From Chloranthus sessilifolius (lineage: Eukaryota > Streptophyta > Magnoliopsida > Chloranthales > Chloranthaceae), in the NCBI GenBank assembly GCA_021018995.1, contig CM037593.1, positions 3,128,088 to 3,192,087 of the forward strand: a stretch of DNA of 64,000 bases, read 5' to 3'. Position numbers and translations under genes: made by a program. Positions 7,548-63,196 of the stretch are shown here, piece after piece (within the stretch, counting starts at the first letter, position 1; the number at the start of each line of letters is the position of its first letter). A model generated the notes under the pieces. The model was not told the origin of the DNA. It made no database searches and saw nothing but the letters and a program-made list of their open reading frames with translations.

Positions 7548-7715
7548 ATGAAGAGATTTTGGGATAGATTAAGGTGTTTGTTGCCCCAAAACAGTTCGAT
7601 TTCGACGGCTCTGCTATTAATACTTATTGTCTACTCCTTCTCTTCTCAATTTCTCCCCATCGAACCCTATTTAGTCCCTTATCTCACTTCAATGAAGCAT
7701 TTCAGCAATTTTCAG
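7548..7715 (+). CDS. SLC19-type carrier exon 1 (residues 1-56)
   Basis: The first ATG in the open frame, context gagaATGaag. It encodes a basic amphipathic start (MKRFWDRLR), then TM1 ([15 protein letters not shown]) and a conserved-looking loop [10 protein letters not shown], ending FSNFQ. The donor is CAG|GTATGA in phase 0. Alignment by eye to the N-terminus of animal SLC19 proteins, where TM1 precedes a PYL segment and a ..NFT..Q exon-like end, supports the assignment. The upstream GTG at 7470 is not needed as a start. Confidence 0.85.
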
Positions 7716-10700: not shown

Positions 10701-13700
10701 GCTGTTGGAAGAGTTTGGTTGAAGAACATTACTACCAAGTTGGGTATGATTGACATCTATGCGCCGACTTGAAGGGGAGTGTTAGAATATATTGGTGTGT
10801 ACTTCGATGTGTGTGTTGTAGTTGACTTAAATTTTACTAGTTTCCAGTGTCTCCATATACGTGTATTGTATACTAATAATAAAAGGGTTTGAGGACATCT
10901 TACTCAACCCTAATTTCCCTTCTCTCTTCTTCTCCTCCTCCTCCTTATTCTTCCTCCAAACCCCAGCATTAACCTAATCAAATCCAACTGTTTTAGTAAG
11001 GCCTGTAGAGGAATGGAGGAGATGGACTTACATGTTAAAATGTTTTATTTCCTGGGATTTGCAAGGATTAAGGTAAAGGCTGAGAAATAAGAGTTTATCC
11101 CTAAGATGATTGATCTTTTAACAGATGGGAGAAGATATTAAATACAATTTTGGAGATGGAGTTGGCTGCCGGAAACTTTACAAGGAAGAATACTATGAGG
11201 GCTTACTGCTGGAAATCAATGAACGCTAGTAATGCATAGGTGAATTCTCATAGCAAACCAAGTAAAAATTGTAATTTGGAATATTGTAACACATTTCATA
11301 TCTGGGTGGTAGAGGGAAGCTTACATACGGGGCTCACAGGGACAGGTGGCATGGAATCATTCTAGGGAATGCCATCCAGGAGAGCATTAATGTCATTTTG
11401 TCGAATCACGTGGCGATGAGAAAGGGTGAAGTAACAAAGAGTTGCTTGAACGTTATGGAGGCTGAATCATGCAACACATTGCATTGTAACTCAAATATCT
11501 TTGAAAAGGGTGAGTGGCGTGTCAATTCTTGCTCGAAGCAAAACCACGCTGAAAGGGTTAAACCCAAAGACATCAATTCAATTTGAGTGCGCTGACATTG
11601 TTTGAAGAGTTTGTGAAATCATAAAATCAGGTTTTCTTTTCTGAAATGGAAAAATAAAAGCCTAAAAGAGAACGATGAGCTAGGTATGCTTAATTCTTCC
11701 ATGGTTTGCGTGAAATAAACAGAATATCAAAGACTTGTAAATTAAAGGACTACTTTCCGAACATTTTTTATAGTTTTAACAACTGAAATAGGAATCAAGA
11801 ACAACAGGAAACAAAAAGCTTAAACAGATTGGCCAAACATAGCCCACAAGAGACAAAGCTCTTACTAGCTCTTGCATTTGCCACCATGATAAAGTTTGAC
11901 AGAGGATATCTTTCTTTTTAGAGCTTCAATATTGATGGTTTATGGTCATTATTTTATGGTTCTTATCTGACACTATCGTTGCAGAGGTTATCTTCAACTA
12001 GTAGGTTTCATATGGAGCATTCAAGATATTTTACATTATGTATGACTTTGAAAGATCTTGGGCAGAGTGACAAAATATGGGTACGGGCGACAAAGTCGGA
12101 AAAAACGGCAAAATAGGGAAAAAAGGGGAAAAATCAAAAGCTAAAAAAACTGTAAAATACGGAAGATGGAAAGAACAGGAAGATCGGGAAAATGAGATAT
12201 ATTAAAATTTTAAAACAATTTTTTTTTAAATGGGTAATATATGGGAAAAAATATATTAGTATGTGAAAAATGCATTTAATACTTGAAATATGCGTATTAT
12301 ACAAAACTACAGATTTGATTCAAAAATGCAGATATTTTATGTGTTTGGTACGTTGTGGCAAAAAAAATGTATTATATGCTTATTTTTTTTTAAAAGTCAT
12401 ATTTTGTCACAATGAATTGTTGGAAATTGACTTCTATTTGTAAAATAATTATTTAAAATTCTGTATGTCTGAAACAGTTCTTCTATGTGCAGGTTACAAT
12501 TGATATATATCCTTGTAGTGTGTATGCCCAACTTATATTTACATTGATCATGGCACCTGCTTGCTGTTATCTCTCGCATAAGGTGGTGATTACTCTAGGT
12601 AAGACGCCAACATGGAGGATACCTATGTAACTGTATATGCTTACTAAATTAAAAAATAATTCGAGAATGCAGTTTACTTGTATCCAGTAGTTTTAAGTTC
12701 ACTATTTTCTGAACCTAAAAAATATATTGTTAGTTTTGTCATAATTCGAGAATGCACTTTACTTGTATTCAGTAGTTTTAAGTTCACTATTTTCTGAACC
12801 TTAAAGTATATTGTTAGTTTTGTCATAACGTAATATAAGGGCATGCTACACAGAATCTTATTGCATTTCTAACATGATTTCAGGAATCTGAAAAATAGTA
12901 TGATTATAACACGGATTTCCATATTTATCCTGTACTGGATTTCGGGAAAGGTCGAGTGATGTCCAGCTCCATGTATCTGTATCTGGGCATCATAGGCCAC
13001 CGTTGGTGTTGGTTTTTTTTAGGTTCAGATCACTGTCTATATCTGCGGCAGCCTGTACAATGTTAGTTATGATAAGCAAGCTGAAAGATGGAAGTAGGGC
13101 TGTCAATGGGTCGGATCGGGTCAAAATCTTGGCTGCCCGATAAGAATGTCCAAATGTCCAACCCGACCAGACAGTGCACCCGACCCGACTCAGTGGTTGC
13201 ACAGTAGCCGACCCGACCCGACCCGTTGGTGCACAGAAGCCGACCAGACCTGACCTGAAAACTTGACCGACCCGGTGCCCGATCCGAAAACCCGACCCAT
13301 CTTGCTAAAAACCTTATTTTTCTAATGTTTAAGGACGGGTCAGGTTGACCGGATGCGGCAAAACATCTTGGTTGACCTGAACCGGCCCGACCGGAAGGTC
13401 GGGCAGGTTGTCTCATGCCTGACCCGACACAACAAGTCAACTTCATGTAGTCAGATGTTTCATGCCTCACCCGACACAACAAGTCAACGTTATGTAGTCG
13501 TTTCTCCATGTTCTCAGGGGGCTAATTTCACTGTGTATGGCCTTGCTAAAGAGGAAGTTTCCAGTTCTTGTATTTTGGAGATGACTTGATGTGTCTGTAG
13601 ATGTTATTTTTCACTAGTATACTTGTAGTTTGGTTTATGTTTTGCCCAACCAGCTATTGCTGTGCTTTTCGTTTGTTCTTTATCTTATGCCCTTTATCTA

Positions 13701-13711
13701 ATAAAAGTCCC

Positions 13712-13783
<72 letters not shown>

Positions 13784-14143: not shown

Positions 14144-14198
<55 letters not shown>

Positions 14199-17100
14199 GT
14201 AAAATACTACATTGTTACTAATTGTTATGTGAATTACATGAGATGGTCTCTTTATATAGAGGAGTCACTTATATTGAGTTGGGACACACCACATATAACC
14301 AAAGACACCCACTTACATTTATGTGGACACTACTCACCATACTTAACACTAATACTTCCTACACCCTACACACTACTTCCTACACACCACACACAAACTA
14401 CTATCTCCAACACTCCTCAAGTTGTATCTTCCATGATGTGAAAGTCCAACTTGCCCACTAATACGTTAAAGGCTTTGCATCATCAATTCCCCTTACAGCA
14501 AATACGGTCTTAACTTGGTGCCCAAGATACAACAAGTGGCCATGTGGTACCTACTATGAACACCTAACGTCTTGGTACACCACCATACTCAAGCGATCAT
14601 GTGGTACTCACTATGGTCCAACTATAGGTTAGTTTCACCTTTTTTTGTGGTACTACACAGCACTCACGTGGCCATGGCCTCTCCCTATGATCCTCATAGG
14701 CTTACTACCTTTTACAATGGTTGTTCTTGGCACCATTACACGGCCGATATCATGACCTAAATATAATCTAGGGGTGTTACAAGATACACATGATCCTTTT
14801 ATAACACTTGTAGATAATTGGGGATTACAACGCACAAGAGTTCATTCATCTAGATCAAATTGGCAGCCATCCACATCTTCCTTAACAACACAGATTTATG
14901 GGCAGCATGGATTTCTGGGTAGCTAACAGCATGGATTCTGGGCAGCCAGCATTCTTCACGGATTTTAGGACAGCACACACTCACAAATTACTATCTCCAA
15001 CACTGTGCCACATAGAACCTTTCTAAGGAGCTCAGGACCACTGTGAAGGTGGTCCTTGGGATCACAAAACCTTTTTTCATATATATATATATATATCTTG
15101 GCAGGTTCGTGCATTATCAGAACTTGAACATCATAAGAGATTCGAATTTCACTGAATTTGGATGTTAGAGGATTCGTACATTATCAGAAATTGAACATCA
15201 TCAAATTTCAGTGCTCTATCATTACTGAAGAAAATCTTTCTAGTATCATCAATACTTTTACAGGGACTGAGAATTGTGGAGTGGTAGAGAGCTTCCCTGG
15301 AAAACACTTCGAAACTCCAGTTTTGATAGAAGCTCCACGTCCTCCCAATAAGACATCAGTATCAGTAGCTTTGAGGTGGAAGCTTGGCTTTCTGAGAATA
15401 GTTTGCCTACATGCTTAAGATGAATATAATTTTCTGGCCTAAATATGTCCTAGTGTAGCATTAACTATTCCAAATGTAGGCAATCGTCGAACTGTTAAAA
15501 TCTGTTGATTGTTATTCTGCTTGACATAATTTAAGGACTCATCAATCAACATTTTTTCAGTTACATTTGTATGCCAATATTTGTGATTGATCAATAAAAG
15601 CTCTTTGTACAATTATTTTCTTGATCATTAATAGAAGTTTGTTTGCGTGATTAAGAATTTTTTCTTATGTATACATTTCCAACGAGACATGTTCGAGCTG
15701 TTGTTGATTATTAAAATAGGATTACTATTGTGAAAATTTCCAAATAGACTAGTTAGAGCTTTGCATTATTATAAAATTGGATTATTGATGTTTGTAGGCA
15801 TTATATTGGAATCCTCTATTTCTGCAAGTACTAATATGATTCCAGTTTTCTTTCTCTCTTTTTTTCCCTGCTGTGGCCTGACTTTTTAAGTTTGAGATAA
15901 TTGGATTATAGATGTCTGTAGTTGTTTAATTGGAATCCTCTATTTCTGCAAGTGCTAATATGATTCTAGTTTTCTTTCTCTCTTTTTTTCCCTGCAGTAG
16001 CCTGACTTTTTAAGTTTGAGATTTTTCTTTTCCTTTCATATATTTCCTATATCAAGTTCTGTCACAAATCTAAAAAATTCATATGTTTGCTAATTTAGAG
16101 GAAGTTTAAAGGTGCTAATATATCAGCTTTTGTATTTAGTTTATTATATCTATCTACTACAGAGTGAAATATAAGGATAGTGTCAAACTTTTTTCCACTT
16201 TTAAAGAAGTTACTAATATGAGATATGTCTATTTTAGGGGCTTTTGGGATCCTTGCAACTTATTTGATCATTTGGTTTGGCCAATCTCTCCTTGAGATGC
16301 AGATTATGCAAGTAAGTAACTCACTTTTGCTTGTGAACTTCATGCAAAAGAGGTTTCTCTACCTTAATCATATTTAGTTTAGAATCATTCTTTTATGCAA
16401 GTCACAATCATGGTTCAAAATTTCAGCCGAAATTTCTGTTTCAGTTTCAGTCCCCACCAAAACCGAAACGAAAACTCAAATTTTCGTTTTTTTGTACTGT
16501 GTTGAAGATTTCGGCCGAAATTTCGGTTTCAGTGGGGACCGAAACCGAAACGAAATCCAATTTTTTTATCCTTGGTCACAATTTCTTAATTTAAATGCAT
16601 CTTTTGATGGTCCAATCATTGCGGAGGCACTTGTTTTTAGGGTTAGAGTTTGTAGGAGGAGAGAGAAAAGAGAGATAGAGAATAGAACGACTTGATTAGG
16701 GTTAGATGGAATAATAACATCTAAGTAGGAGATGGAGGAGTTTGTGAATACATAACAATAAATAACAATACACTATATAGGAGATGGAGGAGTTTGTGAA
16801 TGTCTGGAATGGAATGTGAGTACTCGGAGAAATCTCAGGGAATGGGAGATGAAGGAGTTTGCGAATTTAATGGCGGTCATCTGGGGGATGACTCCCAACA
16901 TCACCAATAGGGACCAAAGAATTTGGGAAAATACCACAAAGGGTGTCTTCTCGATCAAGGAAAATTTTGAACCGAAATTTCAGCTGAAATCTTCAACACA
17001 GTACAAAAACCCGAAAATTTGAGTTTTTGTTTCGGTTTCGGTCCCCACCGAAACCAAAACATTTCGATCAAAATCTGAAGATTTCGGTCGAAATTTTGAA

Positions 17101-23666: not shown

Positions 23667-23704
<38 letters not shown>

Positions 23705-39544: not shown

Positions 39545-39596
<52 letters not shown>

Positions 39597-52374: not shown

Positions 52375-52417
<43 letters not shown>

Positions 52418-52765: not shown

Positions 52766-52844
<79 letters not shown>

Positions 52845-55800: not shown

Positions 55801-58800
55801 ACCATTCTAATGAGTGGCCGATACCGGATCTGATATCGGGATTTAATCCCTTGCTTGTTATCATACTTTTTATACCTAATTAGTATTTTTAGCACTTAAT
55901 GCAACTCAATTTGGAAAGTGTAGTTCTGCATTCTATTGGCGTTTATTTATGTTTTCTATATTAGCAGTTAGTGGGCTAAGATTGTCTATTTTCCATTTAT
56001 GCAGGTCAGTTTCTAGCTCTCAAGAAGGTTTCTTATGCTATATTTTTGGTTATCACTATTACTTCAGTATGTATTATATGACACAACGTGGTCCATCTGT
56101 AGTAAATAAGTAGTTTGAGTTGTGTAGGTTTTTCTTGCTTTTCCGTTGACTTATCTACTTATAGCTCACTGGTTCTTTATCTACTCAGTTGGGAATCTGT
56201 TGTGCCATGACGTTTTTGTTGCCCAAGGATCATCCTTCGAGTTCCTTGTACCCCCAGTTAATAACTTTTTGGGGCAAGAAGGAGGTGATCTTCTGTAGCT
56301 ACTCTAAAAATTCTTTTACTTATTTTATAGGTACTCTAAAAAATACCTTTTTTCCATTGCATCGATGATATAACTGCTGATAACAATTTGTTTTCAAATT
56401 CATACTGTTTGGAAAGACTGAAAACTTAGCCGAATATTTTACCAAGTTTGTTGGTTATAATTTGTTTATTATTTTAAAAATATAAAAACAAAATCTAGAA
56501 GTAGAGAAAAGCAAAAGCCTAGTTACACACCAAGAAAGTGAAAATAACACCAGATATTTAGTTAGTTGCTCGTCAAATTTGGGGAGTTGGTGACAAACAA
56601 TTTCTTATCACAAGACATCATGATGAATGCACATGGGAAAACAACTCTCGCTAATAATAATGCCCAAAAAGCATCTTGCTGCAACCAGTATTTGGTGTGT
56701 TTGCTATGCTGTGATTTGCTAGAAGTTTGACGACCACTCTTTTGAATCCATCTTCGGGTAATCTCTAACACTAAGATAGGTTTGGCATCTTTTTCCTTCT
56801 GTTGAGTTTGGAATTTTCCACAAATGATAAGAGCTTAGGAGTAATTGAACATAATCCTCCCCTTCTAATTGCTATAAAAAATGTAGGAGTTAATTGGTAT
56901 TTACCTCTAGATGATTGTGTAAAACTAAATATGGATGGTTTCAGTGGAATAAGTCTAGTAATAATTGTTAGGGTGGTCTAATTTGCGATACTATTTGGGG
57001 TTTTGTGGGTGTAATGCCAACATAGAAGGATGAGAAATAATATGACAAAATGCTCTTATGCTAAGACTTGATAATGACTCCTAATCTATCAATCATGTTC
57101 ACTAAAATTTATGTGGATTGTGGAATGTGACTCATCCTTGGTTGTTATTCGTCAAGACTAATACTAAAGATCCAAGCCTCATTGGCTCATAGACGGTGAT
57201 ACATCTATAATTTGTCCATAGACAATACTATCCTCATCTAACCCTACCTTCTCCCTAACCAACTTGCGAGAGTTAGAGTAACGTCTACAAGGAGAAATAG
57301 AGAGGAAATTAGGTAATGAGTTCTAACTCTCACCCCTTTTCATTAATATATCTTTCACTTACGACAGGATCTCATATTAACCATTAATGTATTTGTATAC
57401 ACTATACATGTATATGGCTACTGGAGATACCCTAAATTAATCCCAGTGGCACCCCAGCACTCGCCCTCAAGTTGGTGCATAGATATCTATCATGCCCAAC
57501 TTGGAAAGAATATCATATAATCTTTTTTTTTCCTTTACGAGCATCCTGGGATATGGCTCTGTACTCAGCCTTGGCACTGGAATTAGATTTTACATGTTTC
57601 TTGCTCTTCCATGCGACAGGTTATCTCCAACAAAGGCACAAGACCCGATTGGTGGACCTTCTGTCAATTAGTGATCCAACCCAATCAACGTTAGTGAAGA
57701 TCTCTACTTCATAGTGCCCATGATCACTATACAATAGGCATTTTCTTAGTCTTGATTTCAAATATCTCAGAATCTTGTACATAACATTTAGGTGAGTACT
57801 TAGAGGTTAGTGCATATACTGGCAGACTACGCTTAGAACCTAGGCAATATCAGGCTGAGTTAGGGTATATGAACTTTCCTACAACCCTCTCGTACGTTCC
57901 AATATTTTCAAGAGCCTCACCATAATTTTGATCCATAGGGGAGTCAATCGGCTGGTAACCCAATATGCTTGTATACCCATGGATCAAAATTTCAGACGAA
58001 ATCGATACATATCGGTTTCGGATGTCACCGGGTCTATACATTGAATGTATCAGCCCATATATTTTATTATGTATCAGCTGATACATACCAATGTATCGTT
58101 AAAGACCATTACGCATCGTCCGATATGTAGCTGTTTTGGAGCTGACCGATACGTACCAGAAAGCTGAGATTTTGATCCTTGGATATACCTGAGGAGATGA
58201 AGCATATACTTTCGTTGTCAAATGACAATCCCCTTCTTGGATCTGGCAACCTCGATCCTAAAGAAGTATTTCAGTGGGCCAAGGTCCTTTTTATAAAATA
58301 CTTGACCCATAGTGTTTAAGTCTCATGATCTCCTTATCATCATCACTAGTAACCATGATGTCATCCACTTAGACAATAAGAGCAGTAAGATGTGCTCCTC
58401 TTTTAACAAAGAGGTGTGGTCATAGTCATTGCTCAAAATTCCGGCCGATGCCAATACATATCATCCGATATGTATCGTCTTTCAAGGGACCAAGTCGATA
58501 TGTTGAAATGTATCCCACCCCCATTCTATCGTCCATAGTGGCAAACACTACTTTTAAAAAAAAAAATAGCCGTATAATATGCGTCTTTTTGCCACAACGT
58601 ACTAAACCCATATAATACCCGTCTTATTGAGTAATCCATGTACTTTTCGTATAATAGGCGTATTTCGCATATTAAATGTTTTATTCCTGTATTTTATCAT
58701 ATTTCAATAAATAACAGTTAAATTTTTTTTAAAGAAAAATACAGTAAAACTTAAACTTAAAACATATTAAACGTTTTATTCTCCACTTTTTCCATTTTTT

Positions 58801-61800
58801 CCATCTTCTGTATTTTACAATTTTTAGCTTCCAATTTTTCCCCCTTTTTTCTGTATTTTACCCTTTTTTCTCGTATTAAAACTTGACCCACGCCCACTTG
58901 CACGCATTAGATGGGGCACTCAAATTATTGGACAGTACATTCAAAGTAACTAATGTATTGACTAATAATTTGAAAATATCAAAATTATCAGTGATAATTT
59001 CGATATTTGTAGCGATAAGTGCTAAGTGTACTTTTTTTTTACTGTAACTACTTTATTCCACTTAAGTCTTACCCAAGCCCTTTTTTCCCACTTGCAATAC
59101 TCTTCTTTCTTAAGTCTTCTCTCTTCCCTTCCCTTAACCCTATCTCCCCAATTCTTAAGCCTCTTTTTACTCTATTACAACCACTCGAAATCATCAAATA
59201 ACTTACGGATTCTTCATACTATATATAAGGGTCAGTGTATTTTTAATTTTTTTAAGCATTTCTATCCATTTTGTGTATGAAAATGCTTAGATCTGTGAAT
59301 CTAACCATAGACAATTATGAATCATGCAATATATTTATTATATATCACTTAAGTACTAAATATGGGTGGTAATTTTACTTGTTTCTATGATTAATTAGGA
59401 GTTTTATTATATTGGGAATTCGGAATTTTACTTATTTATATGATTAATTAGGAATTTTCGTTCTATTATGTGACCAGTTTAGATATTTCCCATTCAAATA
59501 TGGTATATAGGCACAATTGTTTCATACAACTCATGGCCTTGTCCACCTTACAAAGGTATAATGAATAAATGCTTGTAGAAGGGAATTAGGCTATCTACAC
59601 ATTTTGCTAGGTTTTAAAGGTTTAAAGGGGAGAGGGACTGTTTTTAAAGTTACCTTTTATACTCTTTAACAGAATTTATGGTGAGGCGCCATCAAAGGGT
59701 AGACACCTCCAAGGTATCCTATTCTTGTGTCATTTCTCTCTCTAGTTTGCCTTTTTTTCATGAACATTGATAGAATGAAACCACATTAAGTGTAAAATCT
59801 ATTCAATTGTAGACTATCTTTAAACATTGATAAAAGATTCTAATAAGATTTTGAAGGAATCAAGGAATATTGCTTCTATAATATTATGATCAGAATTTGC
59901 TCAACTACTTCGTAATAAGATGATTTCATGTTTGACCTCTCATAATAAATTAACATGAAAACTCACTCTAAATTATTTAACAGGGTTGGAGTAGGGTTTT
60001 GAAGGAAACATGGCATGGGAGGAATTTACAGATCCTCTCTCTGTGGTTAGTTTTTTTCATGTTCCATAATCATATGATACTGTATACTATATTTAATGAA
60101 CCTGCTTAATTCAAAACTCTTTTCCATCCCTCATGCATTGTGATGATTGTAAGCAGCTACTGAAATTGAACCTTCATTGAAAGCCATGGATTTGTTGCTT
60201 GAAATCTCAATTCTGTGGGGAAATATATGGTACTGGCAAGGAAATCAAACCTTGACATATCTCAGATTCCCGGTTGAGAATGCCCAAAACTGGAGGGACC
60301 TGCATGGTATATAGCATAGTGACCAAGTTGGGGTTCGGGAATAAATCGGCTTGGAAAAAAATCGGAAAAATCCTGCAAAAATCGTCAAATTCTGAAAAAA
60401 TATGGTCAAAATTCAGGAAAAAATAAAATAAATAAATAAATATATTAATTAAAAACTATTATAAATAAATTTTGACCAAAATCGGAAAAAATCCAGGAAA
60501 AATCATAAAATTCGCATATAATACGGGAAATTCACAAATTATTCTAAATTTTGGATTTTTTCGGAAATTCGGGAATAATTCGGATTTTATTCGTTTTTTT
60601 CAAAAAATCCAGAATTATTCGCGACTTTTTTCAAACAATTCTACGAATTTGGTCACTATGGTATGGAGTGACTTTTTTCTTTAAAGTGTTGCGTGTTGGA
60701 CCTAAAAGCCAAGTTTGTTGCCTTCTTATGTTACAATATAATACTATCTTGTTCATGCATCTTTACTATGTACCTACATATAAGCACATATGCACCTACT
60801 TTTAATCAAAAACTCATTTTTGCAAAATTTGTTGGATTGAAGTCCACATCCTCAACGACACAGGTATACAGACACATGTACCTACATATAAGCACATACT
60901 ATATGTAGAGATGTCCTTATCGTATATGGGTGTGTGAGTAGTATATTTTGGGGTATCGGGTGTAAGTAGATTTACTTACATCTACTTTGTTATCCGTGAC
61001 ACTGTATTCCGTCCCATGAAAGATCGTATAAATACTTAATGCATTGGGAAGAGTGTTAATTTAGTCAATCCTAATTTTTTCCTAAACTCTTATCCTTCTT
61101 CTCCTAACTTTAACCCTAACCCTAATTAACTATATATAGGGACCAAAATACATGTGTGATTGATGCAAATTCTATGCTTGCAGGTGGGCAGTGGCATACG
61201 CAGGCTTCTCTTTAGTACAAAATTACGGGACAAATCTCTTTGATGCCATTGACCCAGAATCAAAATATAATGGCCATACTCTGGCTGCATCTCAGGCCGT
61301 TGGAAGCATTGGATCATTCTGTGCTATTTATATCGAGAACATCGCCATTAAATCTGGCCTTTTGATTTACGTGCTTGGATCAGCAGTCATGGCCAGTGTG
61401 TGTTTGTGGATGGGCTTATCTATCAAAATTTGGGTTGCGTACTCATTGTATGTGATTATTTCTGGTATCTACCAGACTCTGGCTTGCCTCATAAGCGTTC
61501 GGTGTGGCCGCTTACTACCTAATCAACAGTTCATACTCCTCTTTTCCATCAACAATTTTGTGGGGCTTCTCCTCGAGACTTTACTTCAGGCAGCTCTTGT
61601 GAGTACATCTTCTGGTTTAACTTTTTGACAAGCCAAACTGCAATGATTTTGTTGTCAGATTACGTAGCCATGCCCATATCTTTTAAGGGGATTTCTGCGA
61701 TTCCTTCTACTTGTTGGTAAATATTTTGAAACCATGCAAAATTTCACTCCTCAAAGCAGAAAAATAAAGTTCAGTAAGTGCTGTATTGTAGATATTTCTA

Positions 61801-63196
61801 TCATAAAATATGAAACTGTGAGTGCGTGATCGATCAAAAAATTAATAAAAATTGTGCATGTGTGTGTTTTCCATGGTTCAAAATTTTGGACGAAACCAAT
61901 ATGTGTCGGTTTCAGAGGTCACCGGCACTATACTTTGAATGTATCATACCAGAGCATATGCGTATATATTGGTATGTATCAGACGGTAGATACCAACGTT
62001 TCGTCTGGAGATACATATCGGTTTGGAGCTGGACGTTATGGAGCAGAAAACCGGCATTTTAAACCATGGTGTTTTCCAATTTTTGGTGTATATCCATCAT
62101 TGTTGAAATCACATTCGATTTCCATTGTCTTGTCCAAGGGGGTTGCACTATAGAGCTTGTTCATGCAGCAATTTTTTTTATAACAATTTTGAGACAAGAA
62201 AAAAAGTTGTAAAACTCGTCTAGAACTGCTAAATGCACCGTGTCTTCCCACTCAATGCTCACCAAAGCGTACTTCAAACCAACCAAGTAACATGGAAGAT
62301 TGGAAAATACCCTGTGTCTTGCTAGAGTGAATTGTTTGAACTGCAATGATTTTGTTAAAAGAGTTCTGTGTTAACATTTTCAAACAGTCTTTTATCCGGA
62401 AAAACGAACCCGCTACCTGTATTCTTATTAAACGGGCAAAATTTCAATTCTTGCAGAAAACAGAGATTGTCTTACTGTTTAATAGAAATGTCTTACTGTT
62501 TATAGCAGTTGTGGCATATATTATTGAACTCTATTCGTGCCAACAGGTTTACTGAAAGCACCAACGTCCGAAACCCCTTGAAATCCATCGACTGCTTGGA
62601 ATCAGGATGATGGAGATCATTTTTCGCCCTTATCTTTTACACGATGGATCTTGAGACCATAAGTGTACCATCTAACGGTCAGTTTTTTTATTCCACGTGG
62701 CACAGCTACCCAAAATGTGATTTTAGAGCCATTTTTGGGGTTCTGTGACATGTGGAATAAAAAGCTTACCGTTGGATGGTAAGATCATGGTCTCAAGATT
62801 CATTGTGTGAAAGACCGGGGTGATAAACAATCTCCATCATCTGATTTCAAGCAGTCAATGGGTTACAGGGGGTTGCACATGTTGGTGCAGAAAATTTGTT
62901 GGCGCGAATAGAGGTACCCTATATTATTATGGATAAAATGTTGCCCATCAACAATTATCTCGTTGGATAGCTGCACTAAATCAATAATTCGTTTGACTTT
63001 GCAGGAAACTCTCGGGCTATCTGTATCTGTCCAATTCATCGCATTCGCTGGATTTTTCTTCTTGGCAACAGCAGTCTTTGCTGGACTCTGCTTTATTGAT
63101 GATGGAACAAGTAGCAAAACTTTTTTGTCGACGAGTGAAACCGAACCTGAACCTCTGATCCCCGAACACACTTGCGATACCATACAAAACATGTGA
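7548..63196 (+). CDS. SLC19 / reduced-folate-carrier-type transporter, complete 10-exon gene spanning 55.6 kb
   Basis: Exons: 7548-7715, 12493-12598, 16238-16311, 36044-36130, 41734-41788, 56005-56066, 56189-56284, 59984-60045, 61184-61598, 63005-63196. Together 1317 bp, 438 residues, all GT-AG introns, and every phase matches its neighbour. Exon order and spacing follow animal SLC19 carriers: TM1 (about 19-36) before a PYL motif, TM2 after IYP, TM3 with [11 protein letters not shown]4 before EEEYQSM, TM5-6, a short cytosolic loop (about 194-228), then [10 protein letters not shown] with NYG, the TM7-11 block, and TM12 before an acidic tail. Animal members move folates or thiamine across the plasma membrane, and the substrate here is unknown. 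It is shorter than animal members, mainly in the central loop. Large introns hold transposons, yet no exon is broken. I do not know how widely plants keep this family. Confidence 0.85.
7963..8253. mobile_element. hAT-type MITE with TAGGGCTGTCAAC ends (intron 1)
   Basis: Left end CTAGGGCTGTCAAC pairs with right end GTTGACAGCTCTG. The interior is rich in gggtcggg / cccgacc. The left flank gaggagaa (7955-7962) recurs as gaggagtc directly at 8245 and as gaggagaac at 8254-8262, so the exact right boundary is 8244 or 8253. The TAGGGCTGTCAA terminus is a form I know from plant hAT MITEs. Confidence 0.8.
8333..8599. mobile_element. hAT-family MITE, ATCGGTATCG motifs (intron 1)
   Basis: Starts CAGTGTGTCAATATCAG and ends CCGAGTTTTGATACCATG, an inverted pair of the CANGGNTCAAAAT type. 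The interior repeats tatcggtatcgg and ccgatac. TSD gtctttat (8325-8332) / gtccttat (8600-8607), 7 of 8. Confidence 0.8.
8901..9188. mobile_element. hAT-family MITE (intron 1)
   Basis: Starts CATGGATTAAAATCTCAG and ends CCGAGATTTTTACCCATG. Interior motifs are atacgtatcggtatcg and attcaatgaatcgg, the latter shared with the long hAT copy at 46665. TSD gcagcaac (8893-8900) / gtagcaac (9189-9196), 7 of 8. Confidence 0.85.
9197..10345 (-). mobile_element. Ty3-gypsy chromovirus pol fragment (integrase to chromodomain), degenerate
   Basis: Minus-strand pieces in gene order. 10131-10345 is integrase core with [18 protein letters not shown] and [11 protein letters not shown]. 9492-9761 is the integrase C-terminal region ([12 protein letters not shown] and LLPPLPTKF). 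9251-9454 is the chromodomain tail ([32 protein letters not shown]). Frames are interrupted and reverse transcriptase, gag and LTRs are missing. It is a truncated copy inside intron 1, joined abruptly to a copia fragment of opposite orientation at about 10345. Confidence 0.85.
10346..10779 (+). mobile_element. Ty1-copia RNase H 3' end, degenerate
   Basis: Starts at a copia RNase H segment ([18 protein letters not shown], then NSIAEAKLE). After a frameshifted stretch it resumes with [34 protein letters not shown] and [10 protein letters not shown] before the stop. A polypurine tract gaaggggag at about 10771-10779 follows. Upstream pol is missing. Confidence 0.9.
10780..10990 (+). repeat. Copia 3' LTR (partial or full)
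   Basis: Begins TGTTAGAATATATTGG directly after the polypurine tract. It contains aataataaaagggtttgagg, then a pyrimidine-rich tract (ttctcttcttctcctcctcc). The 3' end near 10968-10990 is not defined because the 5' LTR is absent. Confidence 0.65.
10991..12054. other. Intron 1, nothing recognised
   Basis: Roughly 1 kb without a repeat or coding region I can name. A 62-codon open frame at 11398-11586 has no family resemblance. Confidence 0.4.
12063..12414. mobile_element. MITE with GTGACAAAATATG ends (family M2)
   Basis: Left CAGAGTGACAAAATATGG pairs with right CATATTTTGTCACAATG. The interior carries aatacgggaaaa-type and gtacgttgtggcaaa motifs. Reverse-oriented relatives of the interior occur at 58549-58890, and the ends resemble the element at 60315. 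The flanks do not give a clear TSD, so the precise ends are uncertain. Confidence 0.6.
12493..12598 (+). CDS. SLC19-type carrier exon 2 (residues 57-92)
   Basis: Acceptor ttctatgtgcag, phase 0, donor CTAG|GTAAGA leaving one base. Encodes [14 protein letters not shown] and TM2 ([13 protein letters not shown]), then SHKVVITLG. The match to the animal family is the pattern Q-VT-x-E/D-I-x-P-x(3)-Y after exon 1 and a short basic turn before the VL-x-L-x-G that opens TM3. Only 78 bp past the MITE at 12063-12414. Confidence 0.85.
12658..12827. repeat. 84-bp tandem duplication (intron 2)
   Basis: Two nearly identical units start ataattcgagaatgca and include ttttaagttcactattttct and attgttagttttgtca. 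They differ at a few bases. Confidence 0.9.
13085..13500. repeat. GGGTCGG-rich MITE remnant plus about 51-bp tandem duplication
   Basis: Starts gtagggctgtcaatgggtcgg, like the hAT MITE at 7963, followed by about 330 bp dense in cccgacc/gggtcgg. No inverted right end is found. At 13410-13500 the block tcatgcctgacccgacac...aagtcaac...atgtagtc occurs twice. Confidence 0.55.
13715..13780. repeat. (AT)n microsatellite, about 66 bp
   Basis: Uninterrupted AT repeat in intron 2. It produces artificial IYIYIY open frames on both strands. Confidence 0.97.
14132..14412 (-). repeat. Probable copia-type LTR, minus strand
   Basis: On the minus strand it begins TGTTGGAGATAGTAG right after a polypurine-like CAACTTGAGGAG. 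It has a TATATAAAG box near 14250 and ends near ...AACCCTACA at 14132. A (GA)n tract (about 14148-14197) lies inside. Sequence right of it (14413-14460) reads like the last codons before a copia polypurine tract. A second scrap of its end, actatctccaacac, recurs at 14990-15003. Confidence 0.55.
14413..15778. other. Intron 2, degenerate LTR-element debris
   Basis: No intact coding sequence. An 86-codon frame at 15158-15418 matches no family I know. At 15110-15200 a half-degenerate repeat of gcattatcagaa.ttgaacatcat occurs twice. A (AT)n run is at 15081-15097. Confidence 0.4.
15779..16027. repeat. About 124-bp tandem duplication (intron 2)
   Basis: Two copies share ggaatcctctatttctgcaag, gattcyagttttctttctc and ctgactttttaagtttgaga with only scattered differences. 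It ends about 210 bp before exon 3. Confidence 0.9.
16238..16311 (+). CDS. SLC19-type carrier exon 3 (residues 92-116)
   Basis: Acceptor tgtctattttag, two bases complete the split Gly codon, donor CAA|GTAAGT in phase 0. Encodes [20 protein letters not shown] then QIMQ, which is TM3. The FGQ-x(4)-MQ-x-M pattern is one of the clearest family matches. At 74 bp it was too short to stand out as an open frame. It is followed by the 19.7-kb intron 3. Confidence 0.88.
16409..16574. mobile_element. hAT-family MITE with perfect 8-bp TSD (intron 3)
   Basis: Starts CATGGTTCAAAATTTCAGCC and ends ATTTTTTTATCCTTG. The interior is ttcggccgaaatttcgg and ggggaccgaaaccgaaac. TSD GTCACAAT at 16401-16408 and 16575-16582, perfect. 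Confidence 0.9.
16610..16775 (-). repeat. Inverted copia LTR fragment
   Basis: The minus strand reads tagtgtattgttatttattg ... ttattccatctaaccctaat, closely matching the plus-strand copia LTR at about 19370-19435 (ataatgtattgttattatta ... ttccatctaaccctaatcaa). A piece reading ggagatggaggagtttgtga is embedded at 16727 and is repeated at the start of the neighbouring LINE at 16780. Confidence 0.6.
16776..17839 (+). mobile_element. 5'-truncated L1-type LINE, 3' end with zf-RVT domain
   Basis: Encodes the region after reverse transcriptase: [17 protein letters not shown], then the zinc-binding zf-RVT core ([48 protein letters not shown]) and [18 protein letters not shown]. There are several stops. 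It ends in a short A-run tctaaaaaaacac. Possible 11-bp TSD acaatacacta at 16765-16775 and 17840-17850. A MITE at 16956-17105 interrupts it. Confidence 0.85.
16956..17105. mobile_element. hAT-family MITE inserted in the LINE, perfect 8-bp TSD
   Basis: Starts CAAGGAAAATTTTGAACCG and ends GAAATTTTGAACCATA. The interior is tttcggtttcggtccccacc. TSD TTCTCGAT at 16948-16955 and 17106-17113. Because it splits the LINE reading frame (SIKE / [10 protein letters not shown]), it is younger than the LINE. Confidence 0.9.
17840..19294 (+). mobile_element. Ty1-copia pol fragment (reverse transcriptase and RNase H), degenerate
   Basis: Plus-strand copia pieces in order: RT start ([38 protein letters not shown]), [17 protein letters not shown], the catalytic region [14 protein letters not shown] at about 18358, a broken connector, RNase H ([40 protein letters not shown]) and the tail [10 protein letters not shown]. 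Multiple frameshifts and stops occur, and gag, protease and most of integrase are absent. A polypurine-like ttgagggttag precedes the LTR. Confidence 0.9.
19295..19445 (+). repeat. Copia 3' LTR fragment
   Basis: Follows the polypurine-like tract, with tattggtgtgtgttggtact as a decayed start, and includes gtctatataatgtattg and ttccatctaaccctaatcaa. It is truncated at the junction with gypsy gag sequence. An inverted relative lies at 16610-16775. Confidence 0.6.
19430..20930 (-). mobile_element. LTR-retrotransposon gag region (Ty3-gypsy-like), degenerate
   Basis: Minus-strand gag blocks. 20579-20926 contains [20 protein letters not shown], typical of the retrotrans_gag domain. 20355-20564 is a Gln/Asn/Tyr-rich low-complexity linker. 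About 20040-20200 encodes [20 protein letters not shown] with C.LR, the Cys/His segment before protease in plant gypsy gag-pol. 19430-19800 holds acidic spacer-like pieces. Frames are broken by several stops. Confidence 0.7.
20355..20564 (-). repeat. Gln/Asn-rich minisatellite within gag
   Basis: About 210 bp of degenerate ttggttttggtattgg repeats on the plus strand, encoding YQNQN-like repeats on the minus strand. It is low-complexity coding DNA inside the gag remnant. Confidence 0.85.
20931..21644. other. Intron 3, no feature recognised
   Basis: AT-rich; probably leader sequence of the minus-strand gag element at its left end. Nothing else identified. Confidence 0.35.
21645..22575 (+). repeat. 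LTR-like region with PBS-like end, interrupted by a MITE
   Basis: It has an LTR-like layout on the plus strand. A U3-like region carries CGATCGATCGA clusters (21768-21960). Then come cctatttaaagccttgtaa and attattattattattggtga, a transcription-start and R-like area near 22050-22110. It ends in ttattttcgtatggtatcga, which resembles a tRNA-Met primer-site start (TGGTATC). No second LTR is seen. The MITE at 22266-22451 interrupts it. Confidence 0.45.
22266..22451. mobile_element. hAT-family MITE (intron 3)
   Basis: Starts CAAGGATCAAAATTTTC and ends GAAATTTTGATCCTTG. The interior is made of gggaccgaaaccgaaattt and ttcggccgaaatttcggtc. TSD gcgtaacc (22258-22265) / gtgtaacc (22452-22459), 7 of 8. 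Confidence 0.9.
22576..23252. other. Intron 3, fragments only
   Basis: 22858-22975 resembles one arm of the MULE-type MITE at 62526 (ccgtttgatgg, catggtctc, tgtgtgaaagattgggcc). The rest is unassigned. Sequence just before 23253 continues across the 1.06-kb element at 23261 into 24331. Confidence 0.4.
23261..24322. mobile_element. 1.06-kb hAT-like non-autonomous element, perfect 8-bp TSD
   Basis: Left end CGTGGTAGTCAAGGCGTCGC, right end reverse complement CAAGGTAGTTAAGGTGTTG. Subterminal regions hold gccatggcg motifs. TSD CTTCACAA at 23253-23260 and 24323-24330, perfect. The interior is AT-rich with a (TC)n tract at 23672-23698 and no transposase. The older element at 46636-52668 has matching ends. 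Confidence 0.85.
24331..25294. other. Intron 3, possible LINE RNase H scrap and unassigned sequence
   Basis: Removing the element at 23261-24322 and one TSD copy, the plus strand reads [18 protein letters not shown], similar to the RNase H tail of plant LINEs. The frame ends at 24399 and an aataaaactat motif lies at about 24490. 24540-25290 shows nothing I recognise. Confidence 0.4.
25450..28387 (-). pseudogene. LINE-A ORF2, reverse transcriptase to C-terminus (broken)
   Basis: In order on the minus strand. 27581-27835 has [18 protein letters not shown]. 27290-27577 has [20 protein letters not shown] then [19 protein letters not shown]. 27004-27306 has [17 protein letters not shown]. 26834-27169 has [18 protein letters not shown] and the catalytic FADDTIIF. 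26463-26729 has [20 protein letters not shown]. 25573-25815 has a remnant of the Cys/His domain ([16 protein letters not shown]). The frame changes several times. Confidence 0.9.
28557..28922 (+). pseudogene. LINE-B ORF1 C-terminal part
   Basis: A 121-codon open frame ending just before ORF2, polar and Arg/Glu-rich, with [13 protein letters not shown] near its middle. That is similar in style to the end of LINE-A ORF1, which has [10 protein letters not shown] at the corresponding place (33345-33375). No zinc knuckle or DUF4283 block is present because the element is 5'-truncated. Confidence 0.7.
28962..32395 (+). pseudogene. LINE-B ORF2 (endonuclease, reverse transcriptase, zf-RVT), broken
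   Basis: Endonuclease blocks: [12 protein letters not shown] at 28962, then [25 protein letters not shown] and [10 protein letters not shown] (29065-29517). 29537-30337 begins [12 protein letters not shown] and contains [17 protein letters not shown] at 30516-30992 has [35 protein letters not shown] and the YADDT catalytic motif. 31180-31542 has [19 protein letters not shown]. 31890-32114 is the zf-RVT region ([27 protein letters not shown]). At least four frameshifts or stops separate these blocks. Confidence 0.92.
32606..33109 (-). pseudogene. LINE-A ORF2 endonuclease domain
   Basis: A minus-strand open frame with ATG at 33109 encoding an exonuclease-endonuclease-phosphatase fold. It starts [15 protein letters not shown], then SLQETKWED, a [10 protein letters not shown] block, [10 protein letters not shown] and [15 protein letters not shown]. 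It runs to the LINE-B insertion point at 32600; the remainder of the ORF continues left of 28388. Confidence 0.92.
33140..35628 (-). pseudogene. LINE-A ORF1 (broken)
   Basis: Minus-strand ORF1 begins near 35628 ([20 protein letters not shown]). Its next open pieces are 35156-35509, 33755-34591 (278 codons, Ser/Thr-rich, includes [13 protein letters not shown]) and 33345-33758 (ending near [10 protein letters not shown]). The pieces are in shifting frames. It is probably the RNA-binding ORF1 of a plant L1; no zinc knuckle is seen. Confidence 0.7.
35662..36043. other. End of intron 3, unique-looking
   Basis: About 380 bp between LINE-A and exon 4, ending in a T-rich tract and acceptor ttttattttatag. 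No repeat recognised. Confidence 0.5.
36044..36130 (+). CDS. SLC19-type carrier exon 4 (residues 117-145)
   Basis: Acceptor ttttattttatag, phase 0 at both ends (29 codons), donor ATG|GTACTT. Encodes [20 protein letters not shown] as TM4, then VPEEEYQSM. The MAT-x-(6)-SYIF-x(2)-VP-x(3)-YQ pattern is a strong family match in sequence and position. The donor is weaker than the others but a plain GT. Flanked by the 19.7-kb intron 3 and the 5.6-kb intron 4. Confidence 0.88.
36131..39395. other. Intron 4, first part
   Basis: Positions 37360-37720 are rich in ggtattgg/gatcgtatcgat motifs like the hAT MITE interiors, but without clear ends. 36900-37020 has an A-rich tract that may be a LINE tail. 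38100-39390 shows nothing I recognise, although 38861-39103 is open for 80 codons. Confidence 0.4.
39396..39983. mobile_element. hAT-family MITE, 588 bp, with (AT)n core (intron 4)
   Basis: Starts CATGGTTCAAAATCTCGG and ends TCGAGATTTTGAACCATG. Subterminal gtatcgg / cgatac motifs. A 45-bp (AT)n tract lies at 39547-39591. TSD atctaatc (39388-39395) / agctaacc (39984-39991), 6 of 8. Confidence 0.85.
39984..40598. other. Intron 4, unassigned
   Basis: Sequence either side of the 39396 MITE could be one older element. A 60-codon plus-strand frame at 40024-40209 is unrecognised. No terminal repeats found. Confidence 0.35.
40617..41278 (-). mobile_element. 5'-truncated L1-type LINE with 18-bp TSD (intron 4)
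   Basis: The minus strand encodes the zf-RVT end: [56 protein letters not shown]. The poly(A) tail appears as a T-run at 40617-40630. TSD acctttactatcataaat at 40599-40616 and 41279-41296, perfect. The 150-codon frame is nearly intact, so this is a fairly recent insertion. Confidence 0.93.
41297..41733. other. End of intron 4
   Basis: No repeat recognised. It contains decoy splice-like sites at 41537-41600, and the true acceptor tttccttttattttgcag is at 41716-41733. Confidence 0.5.
41734..41788 (+). CDS. SLC19-type carrier exon 5 (residues 146-164)
   Basis: A 55-bp exon with acceptor ttttattttgcag and donor TTGA|GTATGT. Only one frame is open: [18 protein letters not shown] plus a split Ser codon. 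It enters in phase 0 and leaves one base, exactly what exons 4 and 6 require. By eye it aligns to TM5 of animal carriers (T-x(4)-S/T-x-LL-x-F...S-x-LSQ), with the last S-Q spanning the next junction. The weakest exon by sequence, but strongly supported by phase and length. Confidence 0.78.
41789..42759. other. Intron 5, first 1 kb, nothing recognised
   Basis: AT-rich, with no repeat ends or coding sequence that I can support. Confidence 0.4.
42760..43345 (+). mobile_element. Ty1-copia RNase H fragment, heavily decayed
   Basis: The plus strand shows, across several frames, [43 protein letters not shown] in place of the SKKQ..ARSSAE motif, MAHMVSEL-like sequence, [10 protein letters not shown] and a final sequence like [11 protein letters not shown]. 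It is older than the other copia pieces judging from the number of stops. Confidence 0.7.
43346..44147. other. Intron 5, unassigned
   Basis: A (CT)n run at 43451-43470; otherwise nothing recognised. Confidence 0.4.
44148..44536. repeat. About 192-bp tandem duplication (intron 5)
   Basis: Two head-to-tail units share caaaacctg.ta, ttgttgtacattgtaa, cctaaagcaatctgcacc, tcagtctttgaacatctgaa and atgccatcttaa.caagcta. Single-base differences are scattered, so the duplication is not fresh. Confidence 0.92.
44540..45615. other. Intron 5, with a possible LINE 3' tail at 44930-45160
   Basis: The plus strand near 45110-45160 reads ttttaataaaactatattg then gtctgtccaaaaaaaaa, like the tail of a plant L1. 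No coding sequence is left. The remainder is unassigned. Confidence 0.4.
45620..46560 (-). mobile_element. RTE-type LINE reverse transcriptase remnant
   Basis: Minus-strand blocks in order: [15 protein letters not shown] (about 46110-46180), [11 protein letters not shown]-like sequence (about 46080), then [16 protein letters not shown] and [14 protein letters not shown] (45827-46024). This matches the RDLDQ..CI.DE and E-V..AL..MK pattern of plant RTE LINEs. Frames are broken. Confidence 0.7.
47224..50290 (-). pseudogene. hAT transposase (BED zinc finger, DUF659, dimerisation domain), broken
   Basis: On the minus strand the BED-type finger lies at about 50290-50160: [30 protein letters not shown]. 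It is followed by an acidic/basic linker ([20 protein letters not shown], 49802-50077). A DUF659-like block is at 49417-49881 ([39 protein letters not shown]). Middle pieces are 48896-49286. The hAT C-terminal dimerisation motif is at 47827-48279 ([39 protein letters not shown]). After an in-frame TAG a Gly/Asp-rich then Tyr/Gln-rich tail runs to 47224. Frameshifts and at least two stops indicate loss of function. Confidence 0.9.
50556..50752. repeat. About 30-bp AT-rich tandem array in the hAT leader
   Basis: Roughly six units of tttatttgatattattataa followed by ttttgaata variants. Confidence 0.9.
50760..51125. repeat. Cluster of ATATGTGACCCAT motifs in both orientations
   Basis: Atatgtgacccat or its complement atgggtcacatat recurs about eight times with mixed polarity, within AT-rich DNA in the hAT leader. 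Confidence 0.8.
51280..51488. repeat. 21-bp tandem array with TAGATCTA cores
   Basis: About ten units of the type ggtagatctacacttatttaa, each centred on the palindrome TAGATCTA; neighbouring units alternate cacttattt and cccttaaat. It lies between the transposase start and the right terminus of the hAT element. Confidence 0.92.
52681..53389. mobile_element. hAT-type MITE with CAGTGTTCTTAAAG ends, abutting the previous nest
   Basis: Left CAATGTTCTTAAAGTC pairs with right GCCTTTAAGAACACTG. TSD gttgtaag (52673-52680) / attgtaag (53390-53397), 7 of 8. Contains a (TG)n(TA)n tract (52767-52842), a nested M1 MITE (about 52905-53135) and a G-run/C-run palindrome at 53345-53370. Confidence 0.85.
52905..53135. 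mobile_element. M1-family MITE fragment nested in the 52681 element
   Basis: Shares with 3836-4257 the ordered blocks acttggacaatttagattga, gtggcataatgataatcaca, gtgtgagattaaaagtct, gatcatttaaacacca and gagccattatc. The left inverted arm appears reduced. Confidence 0.75.
53440..54130 (-). mobile_element. RTE-type LINE endonuclease remnant
   Basis: The minus strand reads [20 protein letters not shown] at about 53830-53880. It then reads [20 protein letters not shown] (about 53610-53690), [11 protein letters not shown], and after a frameshift [18 protein letters not shown] near 53530-53580. The ..GDLN.H.G....GYG/R....N..G...LDFA pattern is the RTE endonuclease. RT is absent; the scrap at 45620-46560 is a separate piece of the same class. 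Confidence 0.8.
54135..54370. repeat. Degenerate tandem repeat, about three units of 80-90 bp
   Basis: The block cc.acccttgcct.cttctcactacaat occurs near 54166, 54235 and 54306, each followed by a ttgtagc or ttgcagcgc segment and a ggggat/ggggac junction. Confidence 0.7.
54742..54835. repeat. 61-bp tandem duplication
   Basis: The segment gaacatcaaatttgacatat plus cttcgtttgacc is repeated head to tail, with cttgcac following each copy. Confidence 0.85.
54836..56004. other. End of intron 5, MITE-like debris
   Basis: 55105-55300 has cggaaaaatcggggaaaa motifs of the M2 type, and 55560-55850 holds gatatcggg/accggat motifs, without defined ends. The acceptor ttttccatttatgcag closes the intron at 56004. 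Confidence 0.4.
56005..56066 (+). CDS. SLC19-type carrier exon 6 (residues 164-184)
   Basis: Acceptor ttttccatttatgcag; two bases complete the Ser codon from exon 5; 20 codons; donor TCA|GTATGT in phase 0. Encodes [20 protein letters not shown], matching the end of TM5, a short loop and TM6 of the animal family (S-Q-x-L-x(5)-SY). Only 122 bp from exon 7, the single short intron of the gene. Confidence 0.85.
56189..56284 (+). CDS. SLC19-type carrier exon 7 (residues 185-216)
   Basis: Acceptor ttctttatctactcag, phase 0, 32 codons, donor GAG|GTGATC. Encodes [20 protein letters not shown], the end of TM6 and the LP-K turn that opens the central cytosolic loop, then [12 protein letters not shown]. 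In animal members this loop is much longer; here it is cut to about 35 residues. Confidence 0.85.
56285..57179. other. Intron 7, first part
   Basis: No repeat or gene recognised; a 69-codon minus-strand frame at 56562-56771 is unassigned. Confidence 0.4.
57180..57459 (-). repeat. Copia 3' LTR, minus strand (inner end firm)
   Basis: On the minus strand, TGCTGGGGTGCCACTGGG begins directly after the polypurine-like CAACTTGAGGGCGAG. The far end near 57180 is estimated. It includes a gtatacaaatacattaatgg region and ctctctatttctccttgtag. Confidence 0.6.
57460..58430 (-). mobile_element. Ty1-copia RT/RNase H fragment, split by a MITE
   Basis: Minus-strand order: [16 protein letters not shown]-like sequence, a [14 protein letters not shown] catalytic region (about 58330-58370), [20 protein letters not shown], then after the [20 protein letters not shown] and [15 protein letters not shown]. 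It continues with [20 protein letters not shown] and the terminal [10 protein letters not shown]. The part of RNase H between AISQDA and the tail is missing (deletion near 57530). Confidence 0.88.
57978..58181. mobile_element. hAT-family MITE inserted in copia (intron 7)
   Basis: Starts CATGGATCAAAATTTCAG and ends CTGAGATTTTGATCCTTG. The interior has cattgaatgtatcag and gcatcgtccgatatgt. TSD tgtatacc (57970-57977) / gatatacc (58182-58189), 6 of 8. It splits the copia frame, so it is younger than the copia fragment. Confidence 0.88.
58430..58900. mobile_element. Composite of a hAT-family MITE end and an M2-type MITE
   Basis: 58430-58530 begins cattgctcaaaattccggcc and holds tatcatccgatatgtatcgt. 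From about 58534 (catagtggcaaacactac) an M2-like interior in reverse orientation runs to about 58890, with gtacgttgtggcaaa-type and cagaagatgg-type motifs shared with 12063-12414. I cannot place the right ends of either with confidence. Confidence 0.5.
58901..59983. other. Intron 7, last part
   Basis: 58930-59000 carries attattgg/ataatttc motifs like the MITE interiors. Nothing else is recognised up to the acceptor aattatttaacag. Confidence 0.4.
59984..60045 (+). CDS. SLC19-type carrier exon 8 (residues 217-237)
   Basis: A 62-bp exon with acceptor aattatttaacag, phase 0, donor CTGTG|GTTAGT leaving two bases. Encodes [20 protein letters not shown] and the first two bases of a Trp codon, so the junction reads SLWWAV. 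The segment matches the end of the central loop in animal carriers, where an amphipathic helix and a Trp-rich SLWWA opens TM7. Confidence 0.85.
60315..60660. mobile_element. hAT-type MITE with CATAGTGACCAA ends (intron 8)
   Basis: Left CATAGTGACCAAGTTGG pairs with right GAATTTGGTCACTATG. The interior is dense in gggaataattcgga / aaaatcggaaaaa. TSD gtatatag (60307-60314) / gtatggag (60661-60668), 6 of 8. Confidence 0.85.
60669..61183. other. Intron 8, last part
   Basis: A degenerate repeat of tacctacatataagcacata occurs at 60771 and 60880. A short ctttaaccctaaccctaatt run at 61109-61128 is not a telomere. No gene seen. Confidence 0.5.
61184..61598 (+). CDS. SLC19-type carrier exon 9 (residues 237-375), TM7-TM11
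   Basis: The largest exon. Acceptor aattctatgcttgcag, one base finishes the Trp codon, donor CTT|GTGAGT in phase 0. It encodes [20 protein letters not shown], a loop with [15 protein letters not shown]8 ([12 protein letters not shown]), TM9 ([20 protein letters not shown]), TM10 ([20 protein letters not shown]), [13 protein letters not shown] and TM11 ([20 protein letters not shown]). YNG, the ..SYY/IYQT.. helix and the loop before ..LLFSINN.. are hallmarks I know from animal SLC19 members. This exon drove the family call. Confidence 0.9.
61872..62068. mobile_element. hAT-family MITE, perfect 8-bp TSD (intron 9)
   Basis: Starts CATGGTTCAAAATTTTGG and ends CCGGCATTTTAAACCATG. Its interior is parallel to the 57978 MITE (ggtcaccggcactatacttt). 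TSD GTGTTTTC at 61864-61871 and 62069-62076. Confidence 0.92.
62526..62919. mobile_element. Mutator-type (MULE) MITE with long TIRs and perfect 9-bp TSD
   Basis: Nearly the whole 394 bp folds back. Left gaactctattcgtgccaaca, gactgcttggaatcaggatg and cttgagaccat match the reverse complement of the right end (tctattcgcgccaaca, gactgcttgaaatcagatga, cttgagaccatg). TSD TATATTATT at 62517-62525 and 62920-62928. The 9-bp TSD and long TIR indicate MULE. It ends 85 bp before exon 10. A degenerate arm of the same family is at 22858-22975. Confidence 0.9.
63005..63196 (+). CDS. SLC19-type carrier exon 10 (residues 376-438, stop)
   Basis: Acceptor gtttgactttgcag, phase 0. Encodes [20 protein letters not shown] and [13 protein letters not shown] (TM12), then a Ser/Thr- and Glu-rich cytosolic tail ([20 protein letters not shown]) and TGA at 63194-63196. 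The L-x-V/L-S/P-V-S/I-QF opening of TM12 matches animal family members. Confidence 0.88.
   Translation, partial: ETLGLSVSVQFIAFAGFFFLATAVFAGLCFIDDGTSSKTFLSTSETEPEPLIPEHTCDTIQNM

Follow-up and report, generated by a model that had tools for sequence, protein, structure and literature searches.

An apparently single-copy SLC19-type carrier gene with a putative hybrid substrate site in Chloranthus sessilifolius

Among the closest known systems to the gene reported here are the human SLC19 carriers, in which a key glutamate (Glu123 in SLC19A1, Glu110 in SLC19A3) is described as binding pterin or thiamine. In SLC19A1, Arg133 and Gln377 are said to be the residues that select folate, and replacement of Glu123 or Arg373 with alanine abolished transport (PMC9794768). 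In SLC19A3, affinity fell from 12.7 to 85 µM with the change E110Q and about 20-fold with E320Q (PMC11447181). The passage of B vitamins across plant membranes is only partly known. As of 2020, according to PMC7200797, the protein that moves thiamine diphosphate across plastid membranes was still to be identified, and a 2025 paper states that before it no plasma-membrane folate transporter of Arabidopsis was known (PMC12687453). OPT transporters of fungi and Arabidopsis move folate and belong, in the words of its authors, to another family; SLC19 appears once in its main text, as the human carrier (PMC12687453). Folate uptake across the plant plasma membrane is one of the roles considered here for the SLC19 protein. 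A search of the open-licence literature turned up no functional work on any SLC19 protein of plants.

We analyzed a window of 64,000 nucleotides (C10:3128088-3192087) from the Chloranthus sessilifolius genome, an assembly of 2.17 Gb in 32 contigs; coordinates of the gene are window positions on the + strand. An SLC19-type gene extends from an ATG at 7548 to a TGA ending at 63196, and its ten exons join into a product of 438 residues without internal stop or frame shift. Exon 1 (7548..7715, 168 bp) encodes residues 1-56 and TM1, with 44 of the 56 residues identical to the Tasmannia relative P0001. It is followed by exon 2 (12493..12598, 106 bp, ending in phase 1), exon 3 (16238..16311, 74 bp, phase 0), exon 4 (36044..36130, 87 bp), which encodes TM4 and residues 117-145 including Tyr119 and Arg126, exon 5 (41734..41788, 55 bp, phase 1), which has 18 of 19 residues in common with Tasmannia, exon 6 (56005..56066, 62 bp, phase 0), exon 7 (56189..56284, 96 bp, phase 0) and exon 8 (59984..60045, 62 bp, phase 2). 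Exon 9 (61184..61598, 415 bp) carries residues 237-375 with TM7 to TM11, and exon 10 (63005..63196, 192 bp including the stop) carries residues 376-438 with TM12 and the C-terminal tail. All nine introns (4777, 3639, 19732, 5603, 14216, 122, 3699, 1138 and 1406 bp) have GT-AG borders, with phases 0,1,0,0,1,0,0,2,0. The 30 codons upstream of the ATG contain no in-frame stop, and this ATG was taken as the start because the relatives P0001 and P0003 start at the same point.

The start, end, splice borders, phases and product length all reproduce the ten-exon chain of the original prediction, which had also placed exons up to 19.7 kb apart among transposons; intron 3 (16312..36043) does measure 19,732 bp and holds transposon remnants. 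The exon size of 55-106 bp given there describes exons 2-8 but not exons 1, 9 and 10. Its claim that no single open frame reveals the gene did not hold, as the frame 61164-61628 alone, around exon 9, scores 77.6 bits against the Pfam family PF01770 (cut-off 27). We conclude that the gene is real, intact-looking and was correctly modelled, and it is presumably transcribed in C. sessilifolius. Its interest lies in a hybrid site, a patchy plant distribution and a recurring loss of exon 4, and not in its being hidden.

A tblastn search of the window with P0001 as query returned ten hits of at least 30 bits. Each exon received one of them, and all lay on the + strand in the order of the exons; the top minus-strand hit had 26.2 bits. 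Across 31 controls, consisting of 30 first-order Markov resamples and the window in reverse, a single hit reached this threshold, at 30.0 bits in the reversed window. Exon 6, which has the lowest similarity of all exons (30.4 bits), is by itself at about the level of this lone control hit, and its acceptance therefore rests on its place in the chain. This is the point that speaks for a chance series of open frames. For the gene as a whole that reading is already refuted, with a practically negligible probability, by the contrast between ten ordered hits and one in 31 controls and by exon borders that agree with those of other species.

The acceptors of exons 2-10 ranked in the top 0.0-4.4% among all + strand AG and the donors of exons 1-3 and 7-9 in the top 0.4-4.5% among all GT, and weak donors were found at exon 4 (11.8% of all GT), exon 5 (21.4%) and exon 6 (22.3%); these ranks are only rough because the scoring matrix was built from a general plant consensus. 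Together with a coding share of 2.4% (1317 bp of a 55,649 bp gene span) and the probable copying of exon 1 by mobile elements, the weak donors at exons 4-6 could point to a decaying gene, with introns swollen by transposons and a full product that is no longer made. We regard such a pseudogene as very improbable, given the ten exons without stop or frame shift, the nine GT-AG introns, the 74% identity to relatives and the retention, judged by eye, of the majority of the residues that do not vary among 26 relatives.

Isoforms and gene models of relatives, which are mostly predictions, match six of the nine junctions (2/3, 3/4, 4/5, 5/6, 6/7 and 7/8). Exactly residues 117-145, corresponding to exon 4, are absent from Tasmannia X2 and Zingiber X2, and two short contigs (P0035 and P0036) also lack precisely this exon. 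A Musa troglodytarum model (P0041) is without precisely exons 4 and 7, and additionally without residues 292-378, which are not an exon. A stretch of 39 residues (146-184, exons 5 and 6) present in Amborella X3 is missing from Amborella X2, giving a breakpoint at the 6/7 border. Magnolia X2 departs from the common sequence past residue 91, at the exon 2/3 border, and Macadamia X2 does so at about 91-94; the two return to it at residue 164 (exon 6), at the 5/6 border. Phoenix X3 departs at residue 86, within exon 2, rejoins at 117 at the 3/4 border, and has one residue more at the 216/217 border, between exons 7 and 8. Telopea X2 shows a late start only and is uninformative on the junctions. 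For junctions 1/2, 8/9 and 9/10 the evidence consists of the splice sites, the reading frame and the alignment. Six relatives whose source label is lgn derive from contigs of 1519-2349 bases with frames of 394-443 residues; these contigs are too short for such large introns and are thus probably transcripts.

The assignment to SLC19 and PF01770 was confirmed. The 438-residue protein scored 206 bits against PF01770 (Folate_carrier, cut-off 27) and 37.4 bits against MFS_1 (cut-off 33.4), and PF01770 was matched by all 26 members of an alignment of the family (A1). In a sequence search of the PDB, all 12 distinct matches were SLC19A1, A2 or A3, with Thiamine transporter 2 (SLC19A3) at the top (E=4.1e-41). 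Smoothed hydropathy gave 12 maxima, but two of these fall in TM11 and TM2 is fused with TM3, so that the profile is consistent with 12 helices without counting 12 alone. A PF01770 profile search of the genome found one locus. The whole-genome protein search, in which the best candidates only were scored, gave 23 matches, namely nine in the window, 13 copies of exon 1, and one at E=2.47 that we take as noise. The gene thus appears to be single-copy, for which this evidence is strong if not absolute.

The protein had been described as following animal folate and thiamine carriers. The likeness is true, but proteins of other plants stand closer to it, with identities reaching 74%, and the residues that set folate or thiamine specificity in the human carriers are changed in a pattern peculiar to it. 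Full-length, collinear orthologues at 70-74% identity occur in Tasmannia lanceolata (LOC143854621; 74.0% over 431 aligned residues), Magnolia sinica (LOC131220824; 73.8%), Telopea and Macadamia, and the isoform breakpoints of plant orthologues fall at the same borders as the Chloranthus exons. This is a plant gene with orthologues that are already deposited and uncharacterised; those of Telopea and Macadamia carry the database name 'thiamine transporter 1-like'. Besides these relatives, the retroelement and hAT remnants in the window also point to plant DNA. The original prediction also feared that standard annotation could miss most of the gene. Other relatives are indeed partial, but all ten exons are represented in 18 of 46 clusters (an exon being counted as present at 35% identity or more, which is strict for the divergent exon 10), so that several related genomes have the gene annotated in full. 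Repeat masking could strip exon 1 from annotations, since its sequence recurs in the genome.

Each search of approximately 5.8 billion proteins recovered one and the same family, in 42, 46 and 46 clusters; in both 46-cluster searches the 7998 best candidates by shared words were scored. The named members are the liverworts Riccia and Marchantia, Amborella, the magnoliids Tasmannia, Magnolia, Asimina, Persea, Cinnamomum and Aristolochia, the Proteaceae Telopea, Macadamia and Protea, and the monocots Elaeis, Phoenix, Dioscorea, Iris, Musa, Ensete, Zingiber, Curcuma, Canna, Vanilla, Wolffia and Anthurium. Of the 46 clusters, six are nameless and none bears the name of a core eudicot or grass; each name stands for a 90% cluster. 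Since a liverwort relative was recovered at 46% identity, a core-eudicot orthologue would be expected to have surfaced too. One of the two 46-cluster searches was a profile search meant to reach algae or animals, and it gave the same 46 clusters as the other. In an SLC19 tree of 29 rows, the liverworts are followed by a four-row clade, perhaps gymnosperms, then Amborella and the remainder, with no resolution of the place of the Chloranthus protein among mesangiosperm rows. This order matches plant phylogeny and agrees with inheritance within land plants followed by losses. An SLC19 carrier that occurs in liverworts and many angiosperms, and was not found here in core eudicots or grasses, may have escaped notice in the standard model species. 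A relative exists in Marchantia, which makes the role directly testable by gene removal.

To compare substrate-site residues, positions were transferred from the SLC19A3 alignment together with PMC11447181 and PMC9794768, with SLC19A1 Arg373 paired to SLC19A3 Lys380 according to its distance from Gln377/Met384, a pair that is stated. Counts refer to 34 rows (31 non-liverwort and 3 liverwort), comprising the window protein and 33 of the 46 relatives after removal of 13 isoforms or fragments; a few fragments remain. Glu39 (SLC19A3 Glu32) is conserved in 32 of 34 rows, and so is Tyr119 (SLC19A3 Tyr113), with gaps in the other two in each case. The key glutamate is replaced by glutamine (Gln116) in 32 of 34 rows, with Ser and Pro in the rest. 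Arg126, at the position of SLC19A1 Arg133 and SLC19A3 Glu120, is present in 28/31 non-liverwort rows, and all three liverworts have Asp. Gln334 (SLC19A1 Gln377) is found in 25 of these 31, with Arg in four, and Asn250 (SLC19A3 Asn297) in 27. The basic Arg373/Lys380 is replaced (Ser330 in the window protein), with 22 Ser, 6 Cys and 1 Gly among the 31 non-liverwort rows, and the position of SLC19A3 Glu320 holds Leu or Ile in 30/31 (Leu270 in the window protein).

The human SLC19A1 is in the same Pfam family, and the plant protein keeps the positions of Arg133 and Gln377, the folate-specificity residues, as Arg126 and Gln334. This would suit a true reduced-folate carrier for 5-methyltetrahydrofolate. 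However, Glu123 and Arg373, at which a change to alanine abolished transport (PMC9794768), correspond to Gln116 and Ser330 here, leaving two of the four residues of the SLC19A1 set, and the score against TIGR00806 (reduced folate carrier equivalog, rfc) is 175.3 bits, below the cut-off of 227.4. We therefore consider an SLC19A1-like folate carrier unlikely. A thiamine transporter of the SLC19A2/A3 type would be in line with several database names and with SLC19A3, also of the same Pfam family, being first in the PDB search; Glu39, Tyr/Phe62, Tyr119 and Asn250 agree with SLC19A3 Glu32, Phe56, Tyr113 and Asn297. In contrast, the positions of Glu110, Glu120, Trp59 and Glu320 differ, so that three of the five residues in the set Glu32, Glu110, Tyr113, Asn297 and Glu320 are kept. 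Glu110 and Glu320 are the residues whose change to glutamine lowered the affinity of the human transporter (PMC11447181), and Glu120 is replaced by arginine. We consider a thiamine transporter of this type equally unlikely. Judged from its residues, the putative site is a hybrid, because Arg126 and Gln334, the folate-selecting pair, are kept while the positions of Glu123, Arg373, Glu110 and Glu320 are changed.

We think it likely that the locus encodes an intact, apparently single-copy plant SLC19 carrier of the 12-helix major-facilitator type. Ten exons would be spliced from large, partly transposon-filled introns to give the 438-residue carrier, which would most likely work by alternating access as SLC19A1-3 do. 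The putative site would be formed by Glu39, Tyr62, Gln116, Tyr119 and Arg126 in the N-terminal half and Asn250 and Gln334 in the C-terminal half. The cargo would most likely be a vitamin-like heteroaromatic compound, with an anionic one (folate or a thiamine phosphate) more likely than plain cationic thiamine.

The exact loss of exon 4 recurs in five of the 46 clusters (P0002, P0030, P0035, P0036 and P0041). Named isoforms account for P0002 and P0030 and a gene model for P0041; among these losses only P0035 and P0036, which are near-identical and represent one lineage, resemble RNA evidence. Exon 4 covers the hydrophobic peak at residues 120-138 (TM4). Skipping it would keep the frame and remove one helix, and the product should not transport. 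The recurrence of this exact loss suggests a conserved splice switch. A more speculative extension of the carrier reading, to which we give a low probability, is that the family is a third functional SLC19 class in land plants, distinct from both the folate and the thiamine transporters of animals, with the hybrid site (Gln116, Arg126, Ser330, Gln334) serving an anionic vitamin form such as a thiamine phosphate. Such a class may have been lost in the Arabidopsis and rice lineages, and hence gone unstudied, and could be switched off post-transcriptionally by the conserved exon 4 skip, which would delete TM4 and Arg126.

Several introns contain transposon remnants with Pfam matches. In intron 3 these are RVT_2 (17769-18233, + strand), zf-RVT (25573-25884, − strand), a sub-threshold RVT_1 (27004-27318, −), a second RVT_1 (30501-30992, +), an endonuclease (32606-33187, −) and DUF4283 (33755-34855, −). 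Intron 4 holds a zf-RVT fragment, the remnant of a reverse transcriptase (40840..41301, −). A hAT-type transposase remnant (47827..50287, −) lies in intron 5, with Dimer_Tnp_hAT at 47827-48315 and DUF659 at 49417-49905; its frame 49802-50287 has no Pfam match. Adjoining this remnant, at 50400-51509, A+T-rich tandem repeats with periods of 21, 30 and about 51 are stacked. Rfam found nothing in the window at gathering scores.

Exon 1 belongs to a segment that is repeated in the genome. The segment, 7567..7975 on the + strand, comprises exon 1 from codon 7 and the first 260 bases of intron 1, and occurs whole or in part at 13 other places (L002-L014) with 90.1-94.7% identity to the window DNA. 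The copies start at 7567 (seven loci), 7572 (four, namely three on C3 and L014), 7608 (one) or 7614 (one); seven of them extend to 7789-7797 and six to 7975. L006, L007 and L008 (C3:91.83-91.86 Mb) are nearly identical copies approximately 12.6 kb apart in a small tandem array. About 118 bases upstream of the captured piece are common to 11 of the 13 copies and are absent from the window; this stretch is broken by an insertion in L011 and was not seen in L012. The sequence CACTACAAGAAAAA, which we take to be the CACTA terminal motif, is found in four copies at a distance of 236-311 bases upstream of the captured exon 1 segment (L008, L009, L010 and L014).

Pack-type CACTA elements are transposons known to pick up fragments of genes, and a CACTA element is expected to show its terminal motif at each end, together with a 3-bp target duplication. 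The exon 1 copies resemble them in that an exon with flanking intron has been copied to 13 places, four of them near CACTACAAGAAAAA. They differ in that the other end, a target duplication and a transposase were not found at the copies; one end was seen, in 4 of 13. We read the copies as probable capture of the exon 1 fragment by CACTA-type transposons. The 5' splice site GTATGA is retained in 10 of the 13 copies. Residue 49 is Val in all 13 copies as well as in Tasmannia and Magnolia, and Met in the window, which suggests that the capture is probably older than the change from Val to Met.

A match at C7:52.19 Mb (residues 25-173, 39%) had been a candidate for a processed pseudogene that would prove splicing; DNA alignment showed it to be only another copy of exon 1 with intron 1, and it no longer counts as support for the junctions. 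The insertion in L011 starts with CACTACAAAAAAT and looks by eye like a nested CACTA-like piece. Three frames near the exon 1 copies gave no Pfam matches. At L009, a frame located some 3.9 kb upstream of the exon 1 fragment resembles part of a chaperonin-60 by eye (no Pfam hit) and may be either another captured gene fragment or a gene of the host.
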